A program made the position numbers and the translations under genes. DNA of 64,000 bases from Chloroflexota bacterium (GTDB lineage Bacteria > Chloroflexota > Dehalococcoidia > Lucifugimonadales > UBA3495). The notes under the pieces were generated by a model. The model did not search any database. It saw only the letters and a list, made by a program, of their open reading frames with translations, and was not told the origin of the DNA. Below are positions 47,926-60,087 of the stretch, one piece after another (the stretch's first letter is position 1; the number at the start of each line of letters is the position of its first letter). The stretch lies in assembly GCA_009837355.1 (NCBI GenBank), contig VXTR01000068.1, positions 1 through 64,000 of the forward strand, in the 5' to 3' direction.

Positions 47926-50466
47926 ATGTCGTTGCAGCCGCAGTTTTCCGAACATCCGCCCAGTGATTCCAGCCCACCGGCGTCCGCTCCCTACTGGGCA
48001 GAGCCGCCCTCCTCGCCCTACTGGAGTGATGCGGAACTGGCAGAAATCGGGGCCGGTGTAACCTCCGGCATAACCCCCTCGGAGGGTTCGCCAGCCATCC
48101 TGCAAGGGCTGAACGAACCGCAACAGCAGGCCGTGCTCTGCACCAGGGGGCCGCTGCTGATTGTAGCCGGCCCGGGTTCCGGCAAAACCCGCGTGATTAC
48201 CCACCGCATCGCCTATCTGGTCACCGAATGCGGCGTAGCGCCGTGGCGCATCCTGGCCGTGACCTTTACCAACAAGGCGGCCCGGGAGATGCGGGAGCGG
48301 CTGGACCGCCTGATGCTCGGCTCCGGCGAGGCCGTAACCATGGGAACCTTTCATGCGGTTTGCGCCCGTATCCTCCGGCGCCACGGCGAACGGGTTGGCC
48401 TTGACCGCAACTTCACGATTTACGACCAGGACGACCAGGTTGACGCCGTCAAGTCGGCCATGCAGCTGGCGGATATTGACCCCCGAAGCTACAACCCCCG
48501 TGCCCTGCTGTCCCGCATCTCGGCGGCTAAAAGCGGCTTGCTGGACTCTCGGCAAATGGCGGCGACGGCTTACGACGCTGACGACGAGTACGGCGCCCAC
48601 TGGATTGACGTCTGCGCGCGAGTCTATCACTACTACGAAGAGGCGCTGACCCGGCAAAACGCGCTGGATTTCGACGACCTGCTGATGCGCACGATCCAAC
48701 TGCTGGAAAACACGCCGGAAGTGCAGGCGCAGTACCATGATCGCTACCGGCATCTGCTAATCGACGAGTTCCAGGACACCAACGTGGCGCAGTACCGGCT
48801 GGCCCGGCTGCTTACCGGGCCCCACCAGAACCTCTGCGTGGTGGGCGATCCCGACCAGAGCATCTACTCCTGGCGTAACGCCGACATCCGCAACATACTG
48901 AGCTTTCAGAACGATTTTCCCAACGCCACAGTAATCGGCCTGGGCGAGAACTATCGCTCCACGCAGAATATCCTGAACGCCGCTGCATCCGTCATCTCCG
49001 TTAACACGGAGCGCATTGAGCGTCCCCTGTTCACCAATAACCCGGTGGGGCGGTCCATCACCCTGCACGAGGCGTACAGTGAAGAGGATGAAGCGGCCTG
49101 GGCGGTGGACGAAGTTACCCGGCTCGCCAGGTCGAAGGAATACCGATCCGGCGACTGCGCGATTATGTACCGCATCAACGCCCAGAGCCGGGCCTTTGAA
49201 GACCAGTGTATGCGCCAGGGTGTTCCCTACCGCTTGGTCGGTGGAGTCCGGTTTTACCACCGCAAGGAAATCAAGGATGCTATGTGCTACCTGCGGGTGA
49301 TTTACAACCCCGACGATGAGGTCAGCCTGCAGCGAATAATCAACACACCGCCCCGCGGCATCGGCGCCAAGACCGTGCAACAGTTGACGATGTTCGCCGC
49401 CAGGTCGGGCATTACCACACGGGCCGCGATGCGCGAAATGGCGGCTGCCCGAACGGAAGACCGCCCTTATCCCATCCAGGTTACGCCGCGGGCGGCGCGC
49501 TCCATCGCAGACCTGTCGGTTACGCTGGACCGGCTGGGCGGGGCGGCGCGGGAGCTTGGGGTTGCCGACCTGTTGGACCGGGTTATGGACATGAGCGGGC
49601 TGGCCCGGCACATCCAGGCGCAGGACGACAGCGAAGAGCGTTGGGAGAACATCCTGGAGCTGCGCGGCCTGGCGGAAGACTACGGCCCGTCCGGAGACGG
49701 CTCCGCCGACGGGCTGAGCGCTTTCCTGGAACGCGTGTCCCTGGTATCGGACGTGGACAGCTACGAGCAGTCCGATGATGCGCTGACCTTGATTACCCTG
49801 CACCAGGCCAAGGGGCTGGAGTTTCCCGTCGTGATGATGGCCGGTATGGAAGAAGGGCTGCTGCCCCACAGCCGCTCCATGGATACGGCGCGCGAAATTG
49901 AAGAAGAACGCCGCCTCTGCTACGTGGGAATGACGCGGGCCAAAGAGCGGCTGTACCTCCTGCGGGCTTTCCGGCGGCGTTATCCATCTTCCGGCGGGGT
50001 TTCCCTGCCCTCGCGCTTCTTGGAAGACGTGCCTGAGGAAGTTCTGGCTTCTCCAGCGTCGGAACGACGCCCGGGTTCGCAATCCGGCGAGTACGGCTTG
50101 ACGCCGGGACGTCCCGGCCGCAACGAAAACGCCGTCATAGGCGGGGAATACAGCACCCGCCGCCGCGAATCACGCACTCGCTTGGGCGACGGCGCCGGAG
50201 CCGGCGGCGAAGCGACCCGGGGTCGGCTGCGCGGCAACATCGACGAGCGACTCACTGAATGGGATTCCAGCCGCTCGGCGCGGCCCAAAAAATCGGAGCC
50301 TGTTCCCCTGTCAGTGGGCGAAATCGTGCGCCATTCCGTATTCGGAGAGGGCGTAGTGCAGGAAGTGCAGGGAACCGGCGACACCGAGCAGGCCACGGTG
50401 AACTTCGGCGGCGATGTGGGACTGAAACGCCTCCTGGTCTCTCTGGCGCCTTTGGAAAGAGGCTAG
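47926..50466 (+). CDS. UvrD/PcrA-type ATP-dependent DNA helicase
   Basis: An 846-residue superfamily 1A helicase. A disordered 60-residue N-terminus precedes LNEPQQQAVLCTRGPLLIVA and the Walker A GPGSGKT at 83-89. Motif Ia (AVTFTNKAAREMRERL), Walker B (DEFQDTN), motif IV (RSTQNILNAAASVI), motif V (LITLHQAKGLEFPVVMMAG) and motif VI (YVGMTRAKERLYLL) are all intact. The C-terminal tail with VGEIVRHSVFGEGVV is the PcrA/UvrD Tudor-like domain that binds RNA polymerase. It unwinds DNA in repair and replication. The transcript may be leaderless. Confidence 0.95.
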   Translation: MSLQPQFSEHPPSDSSPPASAPYWAEPPSSPYWSDAELAEIGAGVTSGITPSEGSPAILQGLNEPQQQAVLCTRGPLLIVAGPGSGKTRVITHRIAYLVTECGVAPWRILAVTFTNKAAREMRERLDRLMLGSGEAVTMGTFHAVCARILRRHGERVGLDRNFTIYDQDDQVDAVKSAMQLADIDPRSYNPRALLSRISAAKSGLLDSRQMAATAYDADDEYGAHWIDVCARVYHYYEEALTRQNALDFDDLLMRTIQLLENTPEVQAQYHDRYRHLLIDEFQDTNVAQYRLARLLTGPHQNLCVVGDPDQSIYSWRNADIRNILSFQNDFPNATVIGLGENYRSTQNILNAAASVISVNTERIERPLFTNNPVGRSITLHEAYSEEDEAAWAVDEVTRLARSKEYRSGDCAIMYRINAQSRAFEDQCMRQGVPYRLVGGVRFYHRKEIKDAMCYLRVIYNPDDEVSLQRIINTPPRGIGAKTVQQLTMFAARSGITTRAAMREMAAARTEDRPYPIQVTPRAARSIADLSVTLDRLGGAARELGVADLLDRVMDMSGLARHIQAQDDSEERWENILELRGLAEDYGPSGDGSADGLSAFLERVSLVSDVDSYEQSDDALTLITLHQAKGLEFPVVMMAGMEEGLLPHSRSMDTAREIEEERRLCYVGMTRAKERLYLLRAFRRRYPSSGGVSLPSRFLEDVPEEVLASPASERRPGSQSGEYGLTPGRPGRNENAVIGGEYSTRRRESRTRLGDGAGAGGEATRGRLRGNIDERLTEWDSSRSARPKKSEPVPLSVGEIVRHSVFGEGVVQEVQGTGDTEQATVNFGGDVGLKRLLVSLAPLERG

Positions 50467-50476
50467 TTTTAGGGAA

Positions 50477-50505
50477 TTGACCTGCCAGTGCGCGGGTAAT
50501 ATACT
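50477..50505 (+). promoter_or_regulatory. Sigma-70-like promoter of the ABC importer operon
   Basis: TTGACC at 50477-50482, 17 bases, then TATACT at 50500-50505. It lies 66 bases before the TTG start of the binding-protein gene. Confidence 0.7.
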
Positions 50506-50571
50506 AGGCGAACTCTGTCGCCCCGGCTCGAACCCCGGCGGCACAAACGCTACGTCATCGGAGGGACCAAA

Positions 50572-52395
50572 TTGGTTAAGCCTACGATTATCACCGTAAT
50601 GGTTGCAGCTCTTCTGTTGGCCATCGGCATTGCCTGCGGCGGCACAACTGACGAGCCGTCAGCCCCGGCTTCCGGACAAACCACTGAACAGCAACAGACC
50701 GGCTCCGCTCCGGCGGCTACCGAAGCGCCTGCTCAGCCCGCTACTCCAATTCCCACCGTCATCGCAACGGCAACTCCCAGCCCGACCAACACGCCCAGCG
50801 CCGCGCAGGAGACTGCCGCCTTGGGCGGCCGACTGCGTATCGCGACGATTCCGCCGGTGCAGCAATTGGTCGGCAGTTGGTTGGGAACTACAACCTCGGC
50901 CAACACCCAGGTTCGCCCCTTTACCGACCCGCTGGTTCACACCGACCGCTTTGACGGTTCCCTGGTGCCGGGCCTGGCGACGGAATGGGAAGCCAACGAG
51001 GACGGCACTCAGTGGACGTTCCATCTGCGGGACGACGTGAACTTCCACGACGGAACGCCCTTCACGGCCAACGACGTGCCTCACAGCGCCTCTCTCATCA
51101 TTCGCGAAGACGCTATCGCCACCGACACCGGTCTGTTCCGAGGGCTGTTCGGAGATGACGAAGCAGAACTGCTCTCCAACATCGTTGCCTTGGATGACAG
51201 CACCGTCCAATTCAACTTGAAGACGCCCAACTCCCTGATGGACTTCTTCGCCGGCGCCCAGCAGGGTAACCTGTTTATGTACTCCAAGGCCCAGTACGAC
51301 GACGGCGGCATCGAGGCTTATGAGAACCCCACCGGCGTGGGTCCCTGGCAGTTTGTAGAGCGCACCATCGACGTCAACCTCCTGTACTCGCGCAACGCGG
51401 ACCACTACCGCCGCTCGCCCTTCTTCGAAGAAATGGAATACGTGCTGATTCCTGAAGAAACTACCCGGCTGGCCCAGTTGACCACCGGGCAGGTGCAGAT
51501 TGGCGAAATCAGCCGCGAGCTGCACACGGACGCGCAAGGCCAGAATCTGGCTGTCCTGCAAAGCGAACTGCCCTCCATCCAGGTGGCCTTCATTATCGGC
51601 GGTGTGTACAACCCTGAGGAAGCCGGCCCCTGTAAGCAGGAAGGCTTTGAGGACTGCTTCTACCAGGAAGGCGATCCCCACCTGAACCCGATGGTTCGTG
51701 AAGCTATCAACCGGGCCATCAATCGGGAAGAAATCAACACCGAGTTGTTCGGCGGCATTGGTCGGCAGCACACCGTTTGGGGCTACCACCCGGCTCTGCC
51801 CGGATACAACCCCCGCTGGACCGAAGAGTTTGACGAAAAGTATGGCTACGACCCGGACAGGGCGCGCCAGCTGCTGGAAGAGTCCGGCTACGCCGGTTAC
51901 GACCTGACGTTGCTCCTCACCGAGCTCCCCGGGGTTCCGGAAATGATTCCTATGGGTGAGGCGGCCTTCTCCTATTTGAGCGCCGTGGGCATCAACGTCA
52001 CCACCCAGCCCATCAAGTGGTCTGACTACCGGGCCAAGTACTACCGTCCCGGCAAGACCCATGGCACGCTGGCGGCAACGCGCGGTACGTATCGGCCGGC
52101 CGACATCACCCTGCGCTTTTACAACCGCAGCGGCGACGCCGGTTTCTGGCGCACCTCGGTTGATCCCATGACCGACGTGCTGTACGACAAGGCCACCCAG
52201 AGCGTGGACCCGGAGGTCAAAGCCAAGGCTCTCTCCGATCTGGGAGACCTGAAGTTTGACCTGTATTCGGAAGTGCCCATCGTGTGGCTGCCCGCGCAGA
52301 TCGTGGTCAACCCCGCCGAGATTGGCGAGATGGCCTGGCCCGGCAACATCAACGCATCTTTCACTCACACCGAGTACATCACTCCCGCCCAGTAA
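50572..52395 (+). CDS. ABC transporter substrate-binding lipoprotein (peptide/opine type)
   Basis: A 607-residue solute-binding protein of family 5 (SBP_bac_5). A TTG start with GGAGGG six bases upstream leads to a lipoprotein signal (VMVAALLLAIGIAC, with the lipidated Cys near residue 22), followed by a Thr/Pro/Ala-rich linker. The mature part has WTFHLRDDVNFHDGTPFTAN and the C-terminal EVPIVWLPAQ region. Family members bind oligopeptides, nickel or sugars. It starts a three-gene operon with two permeases. Confidence 0.92.
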   Translation: MVKPTIITVMVAALLLAIGIACGGTTDEPSAPASGQTTEQQQTGSAPAATEAPAQPATPIPTVIATATPSPTNTPSAAQETAALGGRLRIATIPPVQQLVGSWLGTTTSANTQVRPFTDPLVHTDRFDGSLVPGLATEWEANEDGTQWTFHLRDDVNFHDGTPFTANDVPHSASLIIREDAIATDTGLFRGLFGDDEAELLSNIVALDDSTVQFNLKTPNSLMDFFAGAQQGNLFMYSKAQYDDGGIEAYENPTGVGPWQFVERTIDVNLLYSRNADHYRRSPFFEEMEYVLIPEETTRLAQLTTGQVQIGEISRELHTDAQGQNLAVLQSELPSIQVAFIIGGVYNPEEAGPCKQEGFEDCFYQEGDPHLNPMVREAINRAINREEINTELFGGIGRQHTVWGYHPALPGYNPRWTEEFDEKYGYDPDRARQLLEESGYAGYDLTLLLTELPGVPEMIPMGEAAFSYLSAVGINVTTQPIKWSDYRAKYYRPGKTHGTLAATRGTYRPADITLRFYNRSGDAGFWRTSVDPMTDVLYDKATQSVDPEVKAKALSDLGDLKFDLYSEVPIVWLPAQIVVNPAEIGEMAWPGNINASFTHTEYITPAQ

Positions 52396-52537
52396 ATCGC
52401 TGGCGAGACAGTGCCAAATGGTAGAGGCGGGTGGCAAACTCGCCTCTACACCGAATGACAATCCACCAACCGACGAAATAATCGGCATCCCGGTTTTGTC
52501 ATTTGCCGATGCCGGACACGTCGTAAGGTAACGAACT

Positions 52538-53461
52538 GTGCAACGTTACATTCTGATGCGGGTCGCTCAGTCTGTTCTGACCCTCCTAATCTTGACGGTT
52601 ATCGTCTTTTCACTGGCTCGTATTGCCGGCGACCCGTTGGACGTCTTGCTGCCTTTGGAGGCAACTGTACAGGACGCCGAACGGCTGCGCGCGGAATGGG
52701 GCTTGGACCGCCCGCTCTATGTCCAATACTTCACGTTCCTGGGCAACGCTCTGACCGGCGACTTCGGAGAATCGCTGCGCGTGCGCGGTCGCACCGCCAT
52801 GAGCCTGGTGCTGGAGCGCCTACCCAACACTGCAGCCCTGGCCGGCGTGGCGGTCGTGGTTGCCACGGCAATTGCCGTACCCATTGGCGTGTTGTCGGCG
52901 GTGAAGAAAGACACGCCCTTTGACTATGTGGGCAAGGCGATAGCCTTATTCGGACAGTCCCTGCCGGCTTTTTGGCTGGGACTGATGTTGATGTGGGTAT
53001 TCGCCGCGCAGCTGGGATGGTTCCCTGTATCCGGCAAGGAACAGGGAGTGCTGTCCTACATTCTGCCGGCTATCGCCATCGGCTGGTTCCAGGTGGCGGC
53101 CCTCATGCGACTGGTCCGGTCGTCAATGCTGGACGTGCTGGATTCGGAATACGTCAAGCTGGCTCGCATCAAGGGTGTCGTGGAGTGGAAGGTAATCTGG
53201 AAACACTGTCTGCGCAACGCGGCAATCGCGCCGTTCACGTACTTCGCGCTGATTATCGGGTCCCTGATGGTTGGCTCTGTCTCCATCGAGTTCGTGTTCG
53301 CCTGGCCCGGAGTGGGCCGGCTGGCGGTGGACGCCGCGAACACCAAGGACTTTCCGGTAGTGCAGGCGGTTGTGATTACCTTCTGCATGGTCTATATCGT
53401 GGCCAACCTGCTGGTGGACATTGCCTACGCTTACGTTGACCCTCGGATTCGTTTCGATTAG
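52538..53461 (+). CDS. ABC transporter permease (DppB-like)
   Basis: A 307-residue integral membrane protein starting at a GTG: MQRYILMRVAQSVLTLLILT, typical of DppB/OppB with an N-terminal helix and a periplasmic domain. The EAA loop is at YVKLARIKGVVEWKVIWKHC, contacting the ATPase. About six membrane spans are expected. The second permease starts 12 bases downstream. Confidence 0.92.
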   Translation: MQRYILMRVAQSVLTLLILTVIVFSLARIAGDPLDVLLPLEATVQDAERLRAEWGLDRPLYVQYFTFLGNALTGDFGESLRVRGRTAMSLVLERLPNTAALAGVAVVVATAIAVPIGVLSAVKKDTPFDYVGKAIALFGQSLPAFWLGLMLMWVFAAQLGWFPVSGKEQGVLSYILPAIAIGWFQVAALMRLVRSSMLDVLDSEYVKLARIKGVVEWKVIWKHCLRNAAIAPFTYFALIIGSLMVGSVSIEFVFAWPGVGRLAVDAANTKDFPVVQAVVITFCMVYIVANLLVDIAYAYVDPRIRFD

Positions 53462-53473
53462 GAGAATGCCTCT

Positions 53474-54406
53474 ATGGCAACGGAAAACCGTGTTGCCACT
53501 CCATCGGCAATAGAAGAGTTGGCGGTCGAATCATCGGCAAGGCCGAGCTTTTTGGGACGCTTCTGGGCGGAAGCGCGGCGTTACCCGCTGTTCCCCATCG
53601 TCCTGCTGCTGGTGGTACTGGTCATTCCGGCCATCTTTTCCGACATTATCGCTCCTCACTCCGCCACTACCGGAAGTCTGTCGGCCCGGTTGCAGCCACC
53701 ATTCTGGATGGAAGGCGGCGACACTAACCACCTGCTGGGCACCGACCGGGTGGGGCGCGACATCTTGTCCCGGATTATGCACGGCGCGCGCGTGTCGGTG
53801 ACTATCGCCGCGGTAGCCATCTTTATCGCCGGCGTTCTGGGCACTTCCCTGGGAATCATCGCCGGATACTGGGGTGGCTGGGTGGACGCCCTGGTCATGC
53901 GGCTGGTGGACATATCCCTCTCGATACCTATCATACTGTTGGCCTTGGTAATTGTGGCCGCAACCCAGCCGAGCATTCTGAACGTTATTGTCGTGCTGGT
54001 TCTGCTGATGTGGTCGAGGTACGCTCGACTGGTGCGCGGCGAAACCCTGGCGGTGCGGGTCCAGGACTTTATCTCCCGGGCACAGGTCGCCGGCTCCAGC
54101 CACCGGCGCATCATGTTCCGCCACGTGTTCCCCAACGTGTTCAACAGCGTTATCGTGCTGGCGACGCTCAACGTGGGATTCGTCATCGTGCTGGAAGCCA
54201 CGCTGAGCTTCCTGGCCGTCGGCATTCCGCCTCCACAGCCGGCATGGGGTCTCATGGTAGCCGACGGGCGGGTGCTGATTGCATCGGCGCAGGGCTGGTG
54301 GGTCTCGCTGTTCCCCGGCCTGGCGATTATGCTGGTGGTGCTGTGCATGAACCTGCTGGGAGACTGGCTGCGCGACCGGCTGGACCCCAAGCAACGCCAG
54401 GTATAG
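53474..54406 (+). CDS. ABC transporter permease (DppC-like)
   Basis: A 310-residue permease of DppC/OppC type. The N-terminal cytosolic 40 residues are followed by a first membrane helix, then LLGTDRVGRDILSRIMHGAR, a hallmark of this subfamily. The EAA loop is DFISRAQVAGSSHRRIMFRH. Six spans are expected. A terminator follows; no ATPase gene of the Dpp/Opp type is present, so the importer must borrow one. Confidence 0.92.
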   Translation: MATENRVATPSAIEELAVESSARPSFLGRFWAEARRYPLFPIVLLLVVLVIPAIFSDIIAPHSATTGSLSARLQPPFWMEGGDTNHLLGTDRVGRDILSRIMHGARVSVTIAAVAIFIAGVLGTSLGIIAGYWGGWVDALVMRLVDISLSIPIILLALVIVAATQPSILNVIVVLVLLMWSRYARLVRGETLAVRVQDFISRAQVAGSSHRRIMFRHVFPNVFNSVIVLATLNVGFVIVLEATLSFLAVGIPPPQPAWGLMVADGRVLIASAQGWWVSLFPGLAIMLVVLCMNLLGDWLRDRLDPKQRQV

Positions 54407-54435
54407 GCAACACACACAGGACGGCTCTACAGCGG

Positions 54436-54465
54436 GGGCGGCGGGAACATTTCCGCCGCCCTTTG
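54436..54465 (+). terminator. Rho-independent terminator of the ABC operon
   Basis: Arms GGGCGGCGG and CCGCCGCCC with an 8-base loop, followed by TTTGTTCT. It stands 30 bases after the permease stop. Confidence 0.8.
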
Positions 54466-54583
54466 TTCTGCCATCCTGCCGGCTATGGCGGGATTGGGCT
54501 GGGTAATTTACAATGGGCCTGCGACACAGACTAGCGCCATGGCCAACGGCCGGCTGCGCAGCACCTGTCAGGAGGGACACGTT

Positions 54584-55684
54584 TTGAAGGTTAAAGCTGC
54601 TGTATTGTGGGAAGTGGGTCAGCCCCTGGACATTTGCGAGGTTGACCTGGACGAACCGAAAGCCGGCGAAGTGCTAGTGAAGGTAGGCGCGGCCGGCATT
54701 TGCCGCAGCGACCGCCACTTTATGCACGGGGATGCTCCCATCGCCATTCCGGTGGTGCTGGGGCACGAAGGCGCCGGCACTGTCGTTCAAACCGGCCCAG
54801 GCGTTACCCTGGCCAGCGAGGGTGACCAGGTTATCCTGTCCTTTGTGCCGGCCTGCGGACGCTGTCGTTCCTGCCTGGAGGGGTACAGCAACCTGTGCGA
54901 CCTGCACGCCGCCACCGGGGCCAACCTGCTGGACGGCACCACCCGCCTCCACGCCGCCGGCAAGGACATTCACCACATGGGCAAAGTGGCCTGCTTTGCC
55001 GAGTACGCCGTGATTCCCGAAACCGGCGTAGTCCCGGTAACCGACTCGCTGCCGATGGACAAGGCCGCCATGATTGGCTGTTCGGTAACCACCGGCGTGG
55101 GCGCGGCGTTGTACAGCGCTGAAATCAAGGCCGGCAGCACCGTGGCCGTCATCGGCTGCGGCGGCGTGGGCCTGAACGTGATCATGGGCGCGGCCCTGGC
55201 CAGCGCGGGGCAGATTATCGCCGTGGACATCCGCGAAGCGCAGCTGGAGTTCGCCATGCGCTTTGGCGCCACCCACACCGTCAACGCCTCCGACCAGGAC
55301 CCGGTGCAGCAGGTCAAAGACCTCACCGGCGGGCGCGGCGCCGATTACACCTTTGAGGTTTTCGGCGGCGGGGATACTACCAAGGCAGCCTATGACATGG
55401 CTGCCAAACGGGGCGTGGTTACCGTCGTCGGCATTGCGCCGTGGGGCCAGGAAGCCGCCATCAACGCCGTTGACTTGGTGCGCAACGAAAAGACCTTGCG
55501 GGGTTCTTACTACGGCTCCGCCCGTTCTCGGACGGATATGCCGGTGATGGTGGATATGTACCGGTCGGGAAAGCTGAACCTGGACGACCTGGTGGTGCGC
55601 CACTACACCCTGGACCAGATCAACGAAGCCTACGCCGACCTGGACAACGGCGAAATCGGCCGCGGGGCCATCATGTTCGACTAG
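54584..55684 (+). CDS. zinc-dependent alcohol dehydrogenase (class III-like)
   Basis: A 366-residue medium-chain zinc dehydrogenase. The start is TTG at 54584, with GGAGGG seven bases upstream. Catalytic zinc ligands are in AAGICRSDRHFMHG and GHEGAGTVV; the structural zinc is bound by CGRCRSCLEGYSNLC; NAD(H) by VIGCGGVGLNVI. It oxidises alcohols or reduces aldehydes. The gene is followed 10 bases later by the GrdB-family gene; the pair is probably co-transcribed. Confidence 0.92.
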   Translation: MKVKAAVLWEVGQPLDICEVDLDEPKAGEVLVKVGAAGICRSDRHFMHGDAPIAIPVVLGHEGAGTVVQTGPGVTLASEGDQVILSFVPACGRCRSCLEGYSNLCDLHAATGANLLDGTTRLHAAGKDIHHMGKVACFAEYAVIPETGVVPVTDSLPMDKAAMIGCSVTTGVGAALYSAEIKAGSTVAVIGCGGVGLNVIMGAALASAGQIIAVDIREAQLEFAMRFGATHTVNASDQDPVQQVKDLTGGRGADYTFEVFGGGDTTKAAYDMAAKRGVVTVVGIAPWGQEAAINAVDLVRNEKTLRGSYYGSARSRTDMPVMVDMYRSGKLNLDDLVVRHYTLDQINEAYADLDNGEIGRGAIMFD

Positions 55685-55694
55685 GAGACCGGGA

Positions 55695-56903
55695 ATGCCA
55701 CGTCTTTCAATTCTCTCTGAAGTCCAGCGCCGGATGCTGGAGTTCTTCCCCTGCATGGAGGCCGATGGCGTTCCCTGGACACCGTTAGCAAAACCCTTGT
55801 CGGAAAGCACGGTAGCCATCGTTACCACTGCCGGCCTGCACCTGCGGGACGACAGGCCCTTCAACCGCGACCATCCCGGCGGCGAATCCACCTACCGGGT
55901 GCTGCCCGGCGACGCCGACGTTGCCGACATCGTGCAGAGCCACTTCAGCATCGGCTTTGACCGAACCGCCATTTATCGGGACATCAACATCACCTATCCC
56001 ATTGACCGGCTGCAGGAACTGGCTGAGCGAGGCGTGATCGGCAGCGTCGCGACCAACAACTACTCCTTCATGGGCGCGTTGCGTGATTGCACCGTTGTCG
56101 CCGAGCAAACTGGACCGGAAGTGGCGCAGCTCCTCAAGGACGAAGGCGTTGACCTGGTACTCCTGACACCCACTTGACCGCTTTGCACGCACGCCGTGAG
56201 CGTGCTGGCGCGGGTTTTCGAATCTGCCGGGTTGACGACGGTTGCCGTGGCGCTGGTCCGGGAACACGCCGAGCGGGTGCGTCCGCCCCGGGTGCTGTGG
56301 GTGCCATTCTACTTCGGCTACGCTCTGGGCAAGCCGGACGACCCGGACTTCCAGCACCAGGTGATTGCCGCAATGCTGGCGACGCTGGAGGCAGAGGCCG
56401 GCCCGGTGCTGGCCGACTATCCGGAAGAAGCCGGCCCTATCGGGATGCCCCAAGCCTCCGAAGTGGCTGAGGCGTCAAATGGCAATAGCAGCGCTGCCAA
56501 ACCGCTGGACGCTGCCGGTGAAGTCACCGCGCTGCGCGGCTACTACGAACGCTGGCAGGAGCAGCGGGGCCGCACCGCCGTGGGCATTACCGGAATACCG
56601 CAGCGGCGGTTCCGGGGCATCATCCGTTTCCTGGAAGCCTACGCCGAAAGTGATGATGCCGACATGGACGAACGGCCGGCCGACGTTTCCGTGCCCCAGT
56701 TCGCTCGCTATTGCGCCGACGACTTGAAGGCTTTCTGTTACGAGGCGCGGATGGCGCAGCGGCCAGGCGATAACGAAATGGACATCCATCGCTGGTTCTG
56801 GGGCGAAACCGCCGTGGGCGCGCTGATTGACAGCATCACCCAGCGCCTGAACGCCACGGGAGACGCCAAACTGCAGGCGACGGCCTACGGGTTGTCGCGG
56901 TAG
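55695..56903 (+). CDS. GrdB-family (glycine/sarcosine/betaine reductase B-like) selenoprotein candidate
   Basis: One reading frame of 402 residues runs through a UGA at 56175-56177. The upstream part has VAIVTTAGLHLRDDRPFN, GVIGSVATNNYSFMG and VDLVLLTPT; the downstream part continues PLCTHAVSVLARVFESAG and LWVPFYFGYALGKPDDPDFQ. Both match one family. The UGA codon falls at the family's redox position, giving TPT-U-PLC, a UxxC pair (Sec161, Cys164). A hairpin suited to SECIS follows. Reading as two separate genes would leave the second without a ribosome site. Family members use Sec or Cys here to reduce C-N or C-S bonds. The reaction and partners are unknown. Confidence 0.82.
56178..56205 (+). 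promoter_or_regulatory. Putative bacterial SECIS element
   Basis: Starting 11 bases after the UGA, GCACGC (56189-56194) pairs with GCGTGC (56200-56205) around the loop CGTGA, which exposes a G. An alternative register uses GCACGC at 56185-56190. Position and loop type fit known SelB-binding hairpins. Confidence 0.6.
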
Positions 56904-56916
56904 CGCCCCCAGCCGT

Positions 56917-58146
56917 CTAAACGTCCGGCCCGTCGCCACCGCCGCCGGGAGTATCGGCCGGCAACGGGCCTTGCGGCTGCGGAGGAGTTGAGGGACGGCG
57001 GGAGCGCGCTGCTTGCTCCCTGGTTGGTGGTTGCCCGTCGGGTGTCCAGCCGTCCGGGAAGTGCAGGGTCCGCACCGGGTAGTTGATTGTGATGCCTTCG
57101 TCAATGAGCCGGGCGTGCAACTGCTTGATGAGCGCGGTGCGAACTTCGAAGCTGGCCAGGCGGCTGCTGGCCTGCATAAAGAGCCAGAAGTCCACGTTGT
57201 TCTCGCCGAAAGTGTCGTACCCGAAGTACACCCCGTAATCTTTCACCACGCCGGGGTGTTCCCGTTCCACCTGCCGCATAACGTCCATGCTGACGGCTTC
57301 CACGTGTTGCAGGTCGCTTTCGTAGGCGACGCCGCAGGTCAAGAACACGTTGACGTGCTCTTGGGGCTGGTCGTAGTTGGTGATGATCGTCTCGGCGAAT
57401 CGGGAGTTGGGTATTACCACCAGGTTGTTGGTCCAGGTGCGCAGGCGAGTGCTGCGCCAGCTCACGTCCACCACGTAGCCGGTGACGCCGTTCTCCATCT
57501 CGATGTAATCGCCCTCGTTGACGACGCCTTCGGTGATTACGTAGGTGCCGGCGAACAGGTTGCTCAGTGTGGGCTGGAGGGCCAGCGCGATGGCCAGGCC
57601 GCCAATGCCCAGGCCGGCGATGAGCGGGCTGATGTTGATTCCCAATATGTCCAGGGATACCATCGCCGACATGGCGAACACGACGATGACCATACCGCGG
57701 CGCGCCAGCGGCAACGCCCAGCCGCCGGTGTTGGCGGCGTCCCTGCTCTCCAGGTGCTCTTCAAGCCATCTCAGCACGGCTGACCCGATGGCGTTTATCA
57801 TATAAGCGCCGATAAAGATGGCGGCCAGGGACGCAACTTTATTTGCCACGTCGTGGACGGCAGGCGCGAGAGTCAATGGGACGGTTATGGCCAGGTATGC
57901 CCCGATCAGTATGATGAAGGCGGTGACCGGACCACGGCCGGCTGCAATGATGGTGTCGTCCAGGTCCCCGGCGGAGAAGCGGGCTACGCGCAGCAGCAAC
58001 CGGGAGAACAGCCGGCTGAACGCGAAGGCGACCGCCGCTGCCGCTGCCAATATTATGAGACTGACCAGCAGGTCAACCCAGGTTACGGTGGTTCCGGCAG
58101 CCCAGTTGGAAATGGCTTGCCACCAGCTTTGCATGATGTCGCTCAT
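56917..58146 (-). CDS. MscS-type mechanosensitive channel (copy 1)
   Basis: A 409-residue small-conductance mechanosensitive channel. Several membrane helices precede ISPLIAGLGIGGLAIALALQ, the pore-lining TM3, then the MscS beta domain with VVDVSWRSTRLRTWTNNLVV and IPNSRFAETIITNY. The C-terminal tail (about residues 365-409) is proline- and glycine-rich, likely disordered. It protects against osmotic shock. Its ATG overlaps the stop of the upstream paralogue (ATGA). Confidence 0.94.
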   Translation of the reverse strand: MSDIMQSWWQAISNWAAGTTVTWVDLLVSLIILAAAAAVAFAFSRLFSRLLLRVARFSAGDLDDTIIAAGRGPVTAFIILIGAYLAITVPLTLAPAVHDVANKVASLAAIFIGAYMINAIGSAVLRWLEEHLESRDAANTGGWALPLARRGMVIVVFAMSAMVSLDILGINISPLIAGLGIGGLAIALALQPTLSNLFAGTYVITEGVVNEGDYIEMENGVTGYVVDVSWRSTRLRTWTNNLVVIPNSRFAETIITNYDQPQEHVNVFLTCGVAYESDLQHVEAVSMDVMRQVEREHPGVVKDYGVYFGYDTFGENNVDFWLFMQASSRLASFEVRTALIKQLHARLIDEGITINYPVRTLHFPDGWTPDGQPPTREQAARSRRPSTPPQPQGPLPADTPGGGGDGPDV

Positions 58147-59300
58147 TGGGCTTCGTCTCCGGTCCCGCCAGGCAGTTGCGCCATGTTTTGCGCCACGAAG
58201 CCTTCGGGAAAGTTGAGGGTGCGTACCGGGTAATTGATGGTGATGCCTTCTGTGGCGAAGCGGGAATGAAGCCGTTTGATGAGTTCGCTGCGGACTGCGA
58301 AGCCGGCCAGGCGGTTCTGCGCCCGGATGACTACGACGAAGTCGATGTTGCTGTCGCCAAAGGCTTGATAGAAGAAGCGGGGTTCAAATTCTGGCTCTGC
58401 CTCAGGAAGTTCCTCGCGCACCGCGGTCGCTACTTCCAGGCTGACCGCCTCAACCCGTGGCAGGTCGCTATCATATGCTACGCCGCAGGGTATTATCATA
58501 TTCACCGGCTCTTCCGGCTTGTTGAAATTGGTGATGACGGTTTCGGCAAAGTGTGAGTTGGGCACGATGACCAGGTTGTTGGTCCTGGTGCGGATACGGG
58601 TGCTGCGCCAACTGACGTCCATGACGAAGCCGGCAGTGCCGTCCGACATTTCGATATAGTCGCCAACACTGATGACCCCTTCGCTGACGACGTAAGTGCC
58701 GGCGAAAAGGTTCCCGAGGGTGGGCTGTAAAGCCAGCGCGACGGCCAAACCGGCGATGCCTAGGCCGGCAACCAGAGGCGTGATGTTGATGCCGAGAATG
58801 TCCAGAGAGACCATGGCGGCGGCGGAAATTATGAAGACCAGCACGCCGCGCCGAATCATCGGGAAAAGCCAATTGCTGGCATGATGCGGCTCAGGGTCCG
58901 AACGATGTAAATAGACTTCGAGCCAAAGCAAACCCGCCGAGATGACCCCATTAATCAACACAGCCCCAATAGCCACCGCCACCACGGCGCTGGCCTTGTT
59001 CACCACAGCCTGGACTGTGGGTGGCGGCGACAGCGCTCCCAGCGCCAGATATAGGCCGGACAGAACAATGAAGGCCGCCAGGGGCAACCTAACCGAGGCG
59101 ACCGTCTTCACGTCGAAGTTGGGGCCTGACCTGATTAACATCCGCAGCAGCCTCGGAAAAACCACTATGCTGAACACCGCCGCAATGACTATTGCTGCCG
59201 CCAGTATTGCCCCGCCAAGTATCAGGTCAATCCAGCTTACGGCTGGGCTCGTAGCCCAATCGATCACCGCCTGCCACCAATTTCGGATGCTTTCGCCCAC
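58143..59300 (-). CDS. MscS-type mechanosensitive channel (copy 2)
   Basis: A 385-residue paralogue of the channel downstream, starting at GTG. The pore helix is ITPLVAGLGIAGLAVALALQ; the beta domain has FVMDVSWRSTRIRTRTNNLV. Four or five membrane spans are expected. The sirtuin gene ends one base before this start and the next channel overlaps by four bases, so three genes are tightly coupled. Confidence 0.94.
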   Translation of the reverse strand: MGESIRNWWQAVIDWATSPAVSWIDLILGGAILAAAIVIAAVFSIVVFPRLLRMLIRSGPNFDVKTVASVRLPLAAFIVLSGLYLALGALSPPPTVQAVVNKASAVVAVAIGAVLINGVISAGLLWLEVYLHRSDPEPHHASNWLFPMIRRGVLVFIISAAAMVSLDILGINITPLVAGLGIAGLAVALALQPTLGNLFAGTYVVSEGVISVGDYIEMSDGTAGFVMDVSWRSTRIRTRTNNLVIVPNSHFAETVITNFNKPEEPVNMIIPCGVAYDSDLPRVEAVSLEVATAVREELPEAEPEFEPRFFYQAFGDSNIDFVVVIRAQNRLAGFAVRSELIKRLHSRFATEGITINYPVRTLNFPEGFVAQNMAQLPGGTGDEAQ

Positions 59301-59301
59301 G

Positions 59302-60087
59302 TTACCGAGACCTTATGGCGCGTGTGCGAATGGCGTGGGCTAGAGAAGGCATGACCTCGCCCGCTGGCCCGCTCACTACGACGTGGGCAGCAGGGGTTAG
59401 TTGTGTGGGAACCGGGTTGACCTCGATGATTCGCGCGCCGCGCTCACGAGCCAGCAGCGGGAATTGAGCGGCCGGGCTGACGGCGCCGGACGTGCCCACC
59501 AGTAGCATGGCGTCGCATCGCTGTACTTCAGCGGAGCAGGCTTCCAGTGTAGCCGATGGGATCGGCTCGCCGAACATTACGGTATCCATCTTGATGATGC
59601 CGCCGCAGCGAGGGCAAACCGGAGGCAAGTCACTGATGATGTAAGTGGCCCTAGGTTTGCGAGACCCGCAGCTGATGCAGCGCAGGTAACTGCGGTTGCC
59701 GTGGATTTCCAGCAGGTTCCGGCTGCCAGCCCGCGAATGTAGGCCATCCACGTTCTGGGTGATGACCGACTTGACGACGCCCATAGTTTCCAGTTCTGCG
59801 ACGGCCAGGTGACCTGGGTTGGGCACGGCGTTGTCCACCGCGTCCTTTAGGTCGTAGGTTGGGTTGCCGGGAGTATCCTCGTCGCTCAGGCGGCGTTCCC
59901 ACCAGCCTTGCGGGTCCTGTGAAAACGCGCGGTAGGACAGGTTGGAAGGCTGGCCGTATTTGGTCCACAGGCCATCCTGTCCCCGGAAGGTGGGAATACC
60001 GCTCTCGGCGGACAGTCCGGCGCCGGTGAGCGCGATGGCGTATTCGGATGCTGCCAGGATGTCAGCAGCGGCGTTAATGGAGTCCAT
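59302..60087 (-). CDS. NAD-dependent protein deacylase (sirtuin)
   Basis: A 261-residue Sir2-family enzyme. NAD-binding motifs are GAGLSAESGIPTFRG, TQNVDGLHSRAG with the catalytic His in LEIHGN, and GTSGAVSPAAQFP. The structural zinc is bound by CISCG and CPRCGG. It removes acyl groups from lysines using NAD. No obvious ribosome site precedes the ATG. Two MscS genes follow without a gap. The class is close to bacterial CobB-like deacylases. Confidence 0.94.
   Translation of the reverse strand: MDSINAAADILAASEYAIALTGAGLSAESGIPTFRGQDGLWTKYGQPSNLSYRAFSQDPQGWWERRLSDEDTPGNPTYDLKDAVDNAVPNPGHLAVAELETMGVVKSVITQNVDGLHSRAGSRNLLEIHGNRSYLRCISCGSRKPRATYIISDLPPVCPRCGGIIKMDTVMFGEPIPSATLEACSAEVQRCDAMLLVGTSGAVSPAAQFPLLARERGARIIEVNPVPTQLTPAAHVVVSGPAGEVMPSLAHAIRTRAIRSR

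Follow-up and report, generated by a model that had tools for sequence, protein, structure and literature searches.

A PrdB-like candidate selenoprotein with an unclassified C-terminal helical domain in SAR202-type Chloroflexota

Described relatives and the placement of the gene

D-proline reductase is an enzyme of Stickland fermentation. In the mechanism proposed for PrdB, which is termed hypothetical by its source, a selenolate attacks the carbon beside the nitrogen and a cysteine then breaks the selenium-carbon bond to leave a selenium-sulfur bond (PMC10298544). For FarB, the GrdB-related Sec protein of fluoroacetate reductase, an attack on a carbon-halogen bond has been proposed; its partner FarE is described as not being a pyruvoyl-forming pro-protein, and it has been argued that the substrate of this reduction requires no Schiff base (PMC10838667). 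Proteins of the PrdB type are also known from the sea. The 2005 survey of the Sargasso Sea lists 42 selenoproteins as 'PrdB, pfam07355, UxxC' and reports that all of the selenoprotein genes in that paper had been misannotated (PMC1088965), and the 2008 GOS survey lists 235 PrdB-type selenoproteins, among its commonest, under the label D-proline reductase (PMC2398784). For the branch described here, the parts of these surveys that present the PrdB entries do not say how the domains are arranged, which genes act as partners or which organisms the sequences come from; likened by description (pfam07355/PrdB with UxxC), the entries very likely include its relatives. The gene had been called an unrecognised selenoprotein in a first-pass annotation of the locus, a claim that is not new as a kind, because marine PrdB-type UxxC selenoproteins have already been published. 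A search for literature linking SAR202 with selenoproteins gave no match for selenoproteins as such and two incidental papers for selenocysteine.

The window examined in this study is a stretch of 64,000 nucleotides within contig C46 of a host genome assembly of 3.25 Mb in 89 contigs that is 96.6% complete. On its forward strand, the frame at 55695-56903 is interrupted only by one TGA, at 56175-56177 (codon 161), and is open on both sides of it, as the first-pass annotation had described. Read through, it gives 402 residues with the peptide LLTPT-U161-PLCTHAVS, in which residue 161 and Cys164 form the expected UxxC pair. The segment downstream of the UGA stayed open in just 7 of 2000 shuffles. 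The records matching the gene are nearly all metagenome-assembled genomes of the SAR202 cluster, Dehalococcoidia and other Chloroflexota, presumably of marine or sponge-associated origin, judging by some record names and by general knowledge of SAR202. No relatives were found among viral contigs, and an Rfam gathering scan of positions 50000-60000 gave no match.

Profile searches placed a PrdB/GrdB domain at about residues 20-235 (55752-56399), which is Rossmann-like in the structure model. The gene had been assigned to the GrdB family; membership of the PF07355 superfamily was upheld (residues 20-160, model positions 208-347 of 347, 45.1 bits against a cut-off of 22, the match stopping at Sec because the Pfam model itself ends there), while the placement in GrdB proper gave way to one nearer PrdB. 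The NCBIfam PrdB model TIGR04483 gave the best NCBIfam match, running through the UGA from residue 28 to 232 with 157.2 bits, which is below its equivalog cut-off of 300 bits; TIGR01918 scored 50.8 bits, below its cut-off of 65.45, and no full-length GrdB match (PF07355/TIGR01918) was obtained. Compared with GrdB, the protein is homologous to the C-terminal half, with Sec falling where the Pfam model stops, but lacks the N-terminal half and reads UPLC where the GrdB of locus L090 reads UGTS. With PrdB it shares the length of the N-terminal domain, Sec at the same position of a UxxC motif and the core residues, those common to clostridial PrdB including H83, D96, N98, P102, G127, U161, C164, E176, R199 and G208. 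By sequence, the nearest described family is PrdB, closer than GrdB. The differences from PrdB are the sub-threshold score, the missing PrdA, an additional C-terminal domain of about 130 residues and a clade of its own: a phylogeny of the domain common to these proteins groups the long proteins with the paralogues of the type found on host contig C34 (100/100) and keeps this clade separate from the PrdB of clostridia and lactobacilli. Deeper nodes of the phylogeny are weakly supported, and its GrdB branch is very long. Two alphaproteobacterial proteins (L126 and L127, named 'glycine/sarcosine/betaine reductase selenoprotein B family protein' by NCBI) likewise have a PrdB-type domain and stand alone, but they carry CxxC at the UxxC position, with Cys for Sec, and are distant in the tree. 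A search of PDB sequences with a profile of the gene family found nothing below E 0.38, and a fold search with the whole model was uninformative, giving no E below 0.001 and, for widespread Rossmann-like folds, VIA Z scores that reached 8.0.

Decoding of the UGA codon

The earlier suggestion that the organism decodes UGA as Sec is borne out by the host genome, in which all four components of the machinery were found. Profile searches recovered selA (556 bits), selB (355 bits) and selD (382 bits), and a tRNA-Sec with anticodon UCA scored 66.4 bits and was also reported by ARAGORN; the searches for tRNA-Sec, SelB and SelD gave weak matches in control genomes too, and the matches of the host itself lie above the curated cut-offs and well above these secondary matches. 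The host selD is itself a Sec gene with an in-frame TGA near its start (L053 1480-1700, G000:C39). A second PrdB-like gene with an in-frame TGA lies on the minus strand at about 4427-5680 of L128 (G000:C34); its product is 38% identical to the window protein, scores 95 bits with TIGR04483 and has a C-terminal domain of the same kind.

A homologue of some sort was present in 43 of 60 relatives, with TGA in every orthologue spanning the site, and TGA was also found in all 34 Dehalococcoidia/SAR202 loci from the public genome collection. Thirty shorter Chloroflexota homologues, in contrast, divide between TGA (16) and TGC or TGT (14) at this codon, and one TGA form (L105) and one TGC form (L110) with nearly identical flanking peptides fall within a single supported group of three (99/92). 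Such exchange of Sec and Cys at an exact position is a classic sign of a Sec site. Selection also points to a continuous product: dN/dS against congeners is about 0.065-0.13 before the UGA and 0.056-0.14 after it (0.053-0.13 in the C-terminal extension), that is, strong purifying selection on both sides as judged from these sequence comparisons.

A hairpin of bacterial SECIS type follows 11 bases after the UGA (56189-56205), with the 5' arm GCACGC at 56189-56194, the loop CGTGA at 56195-56199 and the 3' arm GCGTGC at 56200-56205. The position, arms, loop and spacing agree with the first-pass annotation; its sixth and outermost pair (56189 with 56205) does not hold up, failing in 20 of 36 distinct sequences, so the conserved core consists of five pairs. 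Across these 36 sequences, 89.8% of pairing cells can pair; shuffled sequences reach 83.5%, and sliding the arms gives no more than 58%. A consensus fold adds to the evidence for the hairpin. One pair is G-C in 23 sequences, A-U in 13 and broken in none, a compensatory change (23:0/0:13, Fisher p about 4e-10 by a statistic that ignores relatedness) whose 5' side alters an amino acid (Ala/Thr 167) and whose 3' side is mostly silent (Ser AGC/AGT). The loop G and T at 56196-56197 are invariant. For bacterial selenoprotein genes, the Sargasso Sea survey describes a hairpin just downstream of the UGA whose small apical loop contains a G (PMC1088965), and the hairpin found here, with its invariant G at 56196, has that form. 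A comparison of 13 congeners revealed no synonymous variation in codons 166-170, the mean variability per codon being 0.25; this signal is not decisive alone because other short stretches of the gene are about equally invariant.

Taken at face value, the UGA could instead be a true stop, in a pseudogene, through a sequencing error, or between two genes of which the second starts anew at GTG 56196, and a standard ORF caller does cut the gene into 160 and 235 residues, the split that had been foreseen. Against this stand the TGA kept across dozens of genomes, Cys in homologues at the same position, the covariation within the hairpin, purifying selection before and after the codon and the complete Sec machinery of the genome. 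A true stop is therefore extremely improbable, and we reject the stop-codon, pseudogene and two-gene readings on the grounds of conservation and covariation. By the same evidence, the gene almost certainly codes for a selenoprotein.

C-terminal domain and genomic context

The first-pass annotation overlooked a conserved C-terminal domain without counterpart in PrdB, spanning residues 271-402 (56505-56900) and containing 32 invariant columns in 16 sequences. Modelled alone, this domain is all helical (pLDDT 93). It has no match in a Pfam scan and no clear relative among solved structures (best Foldseek E 2.4, best VIA-align Z 5.3). Within the class, a profile of the domain matches 68 of 393 genomes; among plasmids it matches none. 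Apart from L160 and some fragments, the open frames at these matches span about 235-300 codons, a size that would fit a segment beginning after a UGA. The 488-codon frame of L160 (G732:C17) was considered as a Cys version and rejected, having no PrdB domain ahead; there the domain is in frame with unrelated sensor-kinase-like sequence, and the joined frame is probably a misassembly. A short piece resembling residues 350-378 alone (L142, about 2000-2086, G030:C11) is perhaps a gene remnant. In the literature searched, with incomplete coverage, neither the fused domain nor an absent partner was found to be described.

Upstream, with 10 bases between them, the selenoprotein gene is preceded by a zinc alcohol dehydrogenase gene (54584-55684, plus strand); the likely start of the latter, by comparison with congeners, is TTG 54584, and the nearest model to its product is TIGR03989 (NDMA-dependent alcohol dehydrogenase), below the cut-off. 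A mycofactocin link of this enzyme was considered and rejected, as the maturase model TIGR03962 gave only sub-threshold matches (best 57.5 bits against 265). The dehydrogenase had been taken as an operon partner in place of GrdA/GrdE and as a sign of a possibly new reaction. The lack of a GrdA/GrdE-type operon partner stands, whereas the dehydrogenase lies upstream in only 16 of 34 loci, all from two related clades (two more loci end too near to tell), and so says little in favor of any particular new reaction. At other loci the genes nearby encode a luciferase-like monooxygenase, a glyoxalase-like protein or a peptide ABC transporter, and the neighbours of the shorter homologues L149-L151 (a sugar-type oxidoreductase, ATP-grasp and pantothenate genes, and others) show no common theme.

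In several congeners, one or two small PaREP1/PaREP8-related genes that are absent from the window lie between the dehydrogenase and the selenoprotein gene (L060 4201-4988 and similar). Downstream, the minus strand at 56917-60087 holds two related channel-like genes, which on reading their sequence we take to be of MscS type, and a Sir2-like gene, an order kept in most congeners. An annotated prdB on a plasmid of Peptoclostridium acidaminophilum (L125 2965-3678) has no annotated prdA within 3 kb on either side.

Members of PF09338, the PrdA/GrdE family, were absent from the host genome and 12 congeners in a search that did find one in relative G026. The absence of PrdA is not provable from an incomplete assembly in many contigs alone, and the congeners agree with it. 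GrdC-beta was absent from the host and 13 congeners, with seven other relatives positive. GrdA was not found in the host either, a weak result since the search matched no control genome. In G026, a distant relative within Dehalococcoidia, the orthologue lies 78 bases upstream of GrdC-beta (606 bits) on the same strand, and the glycine reductase type cluster continues with a GrdA-like frame, GrdE and a Sec-containing GrdB (L090 6243-11191); the GrdA-like frame, with CFVUTSAGALDL, is presumed to be such from its resemblance to the GrdA motif. This arrangement would tie the protein to reductase chemistry in one lineage, and may be a coincidence, being seen in 1 of 34 loci.

Possible function and its significance

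Several explanations for the function of the protein can be considered, of which we favor, as probable and well short of certain, a Sec/Cys reductase of the PrdB branch that cleaves a carbon-heteroatom bond and acts without a PrdA/GrdE subunit. We infer its chemistry from homology. SelB and tRNA-Sec, aided by the hairpin, almost certainly decode UGA 161 as Sec, and the Sec selenolate would attack a substrate carbon beside a leaving group (an amine or other heteroatom). Cys164 would then resolve the selenium-carbon adduct to release the reduced product and form a Se-S bond, which a dithiol would reduce again; Sec161 and Cys164 fit the attacking and resolving roles of the mechanism proposed for PrdB. 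No carbonyl subunit of the PrdA/GrdE kind would be used, and the C-terminal helical domain may provide substrate binding or contacts with a partner. Either the substrate may need no Schiff base, or the extra domain may take over the role of the missing subunit. FarB, which resembles the window protein in being a GrdB-related Sec protein with a proposed attack of this sort, differs in keeping its FarE partner, and no such gene was found here.

The main rival, with a real though clearly smaller chance of being correct, is a thiol-redox selenoprotein in which the PrdB fold has been put to another use, the reduction of disulfides or peroxides. Such a role predicts the same UxxC pattern and would suit a gene that stands alone in varied neighbourhoods and has alphaproteobacterial homologues outside any obvious reductase cluster, but the retention of PrdB-shared residues beyond UxxC and the one orthologue inside a glycine reductase type cluster speak against it. 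An ordinary D-proline reductase PrdB with PrdA encoded elsewhere is improbable: the best NCBIfam match and the key residues shared with clostridial PrdB speak for it, whereas the score of about half the equivalog cut-off, the absence of a PF09338 subunit in host and congeners, the separate clade and the extra domain do not, and the prdB genes of Ligilactobacillus and Terrisporobacter adjoin prdA, which the window gene does not. Marginally less probable again is a protein B of the glycine, betaine or sarcosine reductase type that feeds GrdA/GrdC; the above-threshold PF07355 match and the G026 cluster would accord with this, against which weigh the absence of GrdC-beta and PF09338 from host and congeners, the sub-threshold TIGR01918 score and, weakly given its failed control, the lack of a GrdA match.

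What is unusual at this locus, on present sequence comparisons, is a conserved C-terminal domain in a genome and genus without a detectable PrdA/GrdE subunit. Extending the favored reading of a PrdB-branch reductase, it is conceivable, on a tentative view, that marine Chloroflexota of the SAR202 type break C-N, C-S or C-halogen bonds in dissolved organic matter by means of a self-contained Sec reductase whose fused helical domain replaces PrdA/GrdE. Because the partner is undetectable and an uncharacterised domain is fused to the protein, the label D-proline reductase is probably wrong for this branch. Standard gene callers will cut such genes in two. If the label is indeed wrong, the branch would represent a widespread marine selenoprotein without known function, for which the domain layout provides a concrete target.
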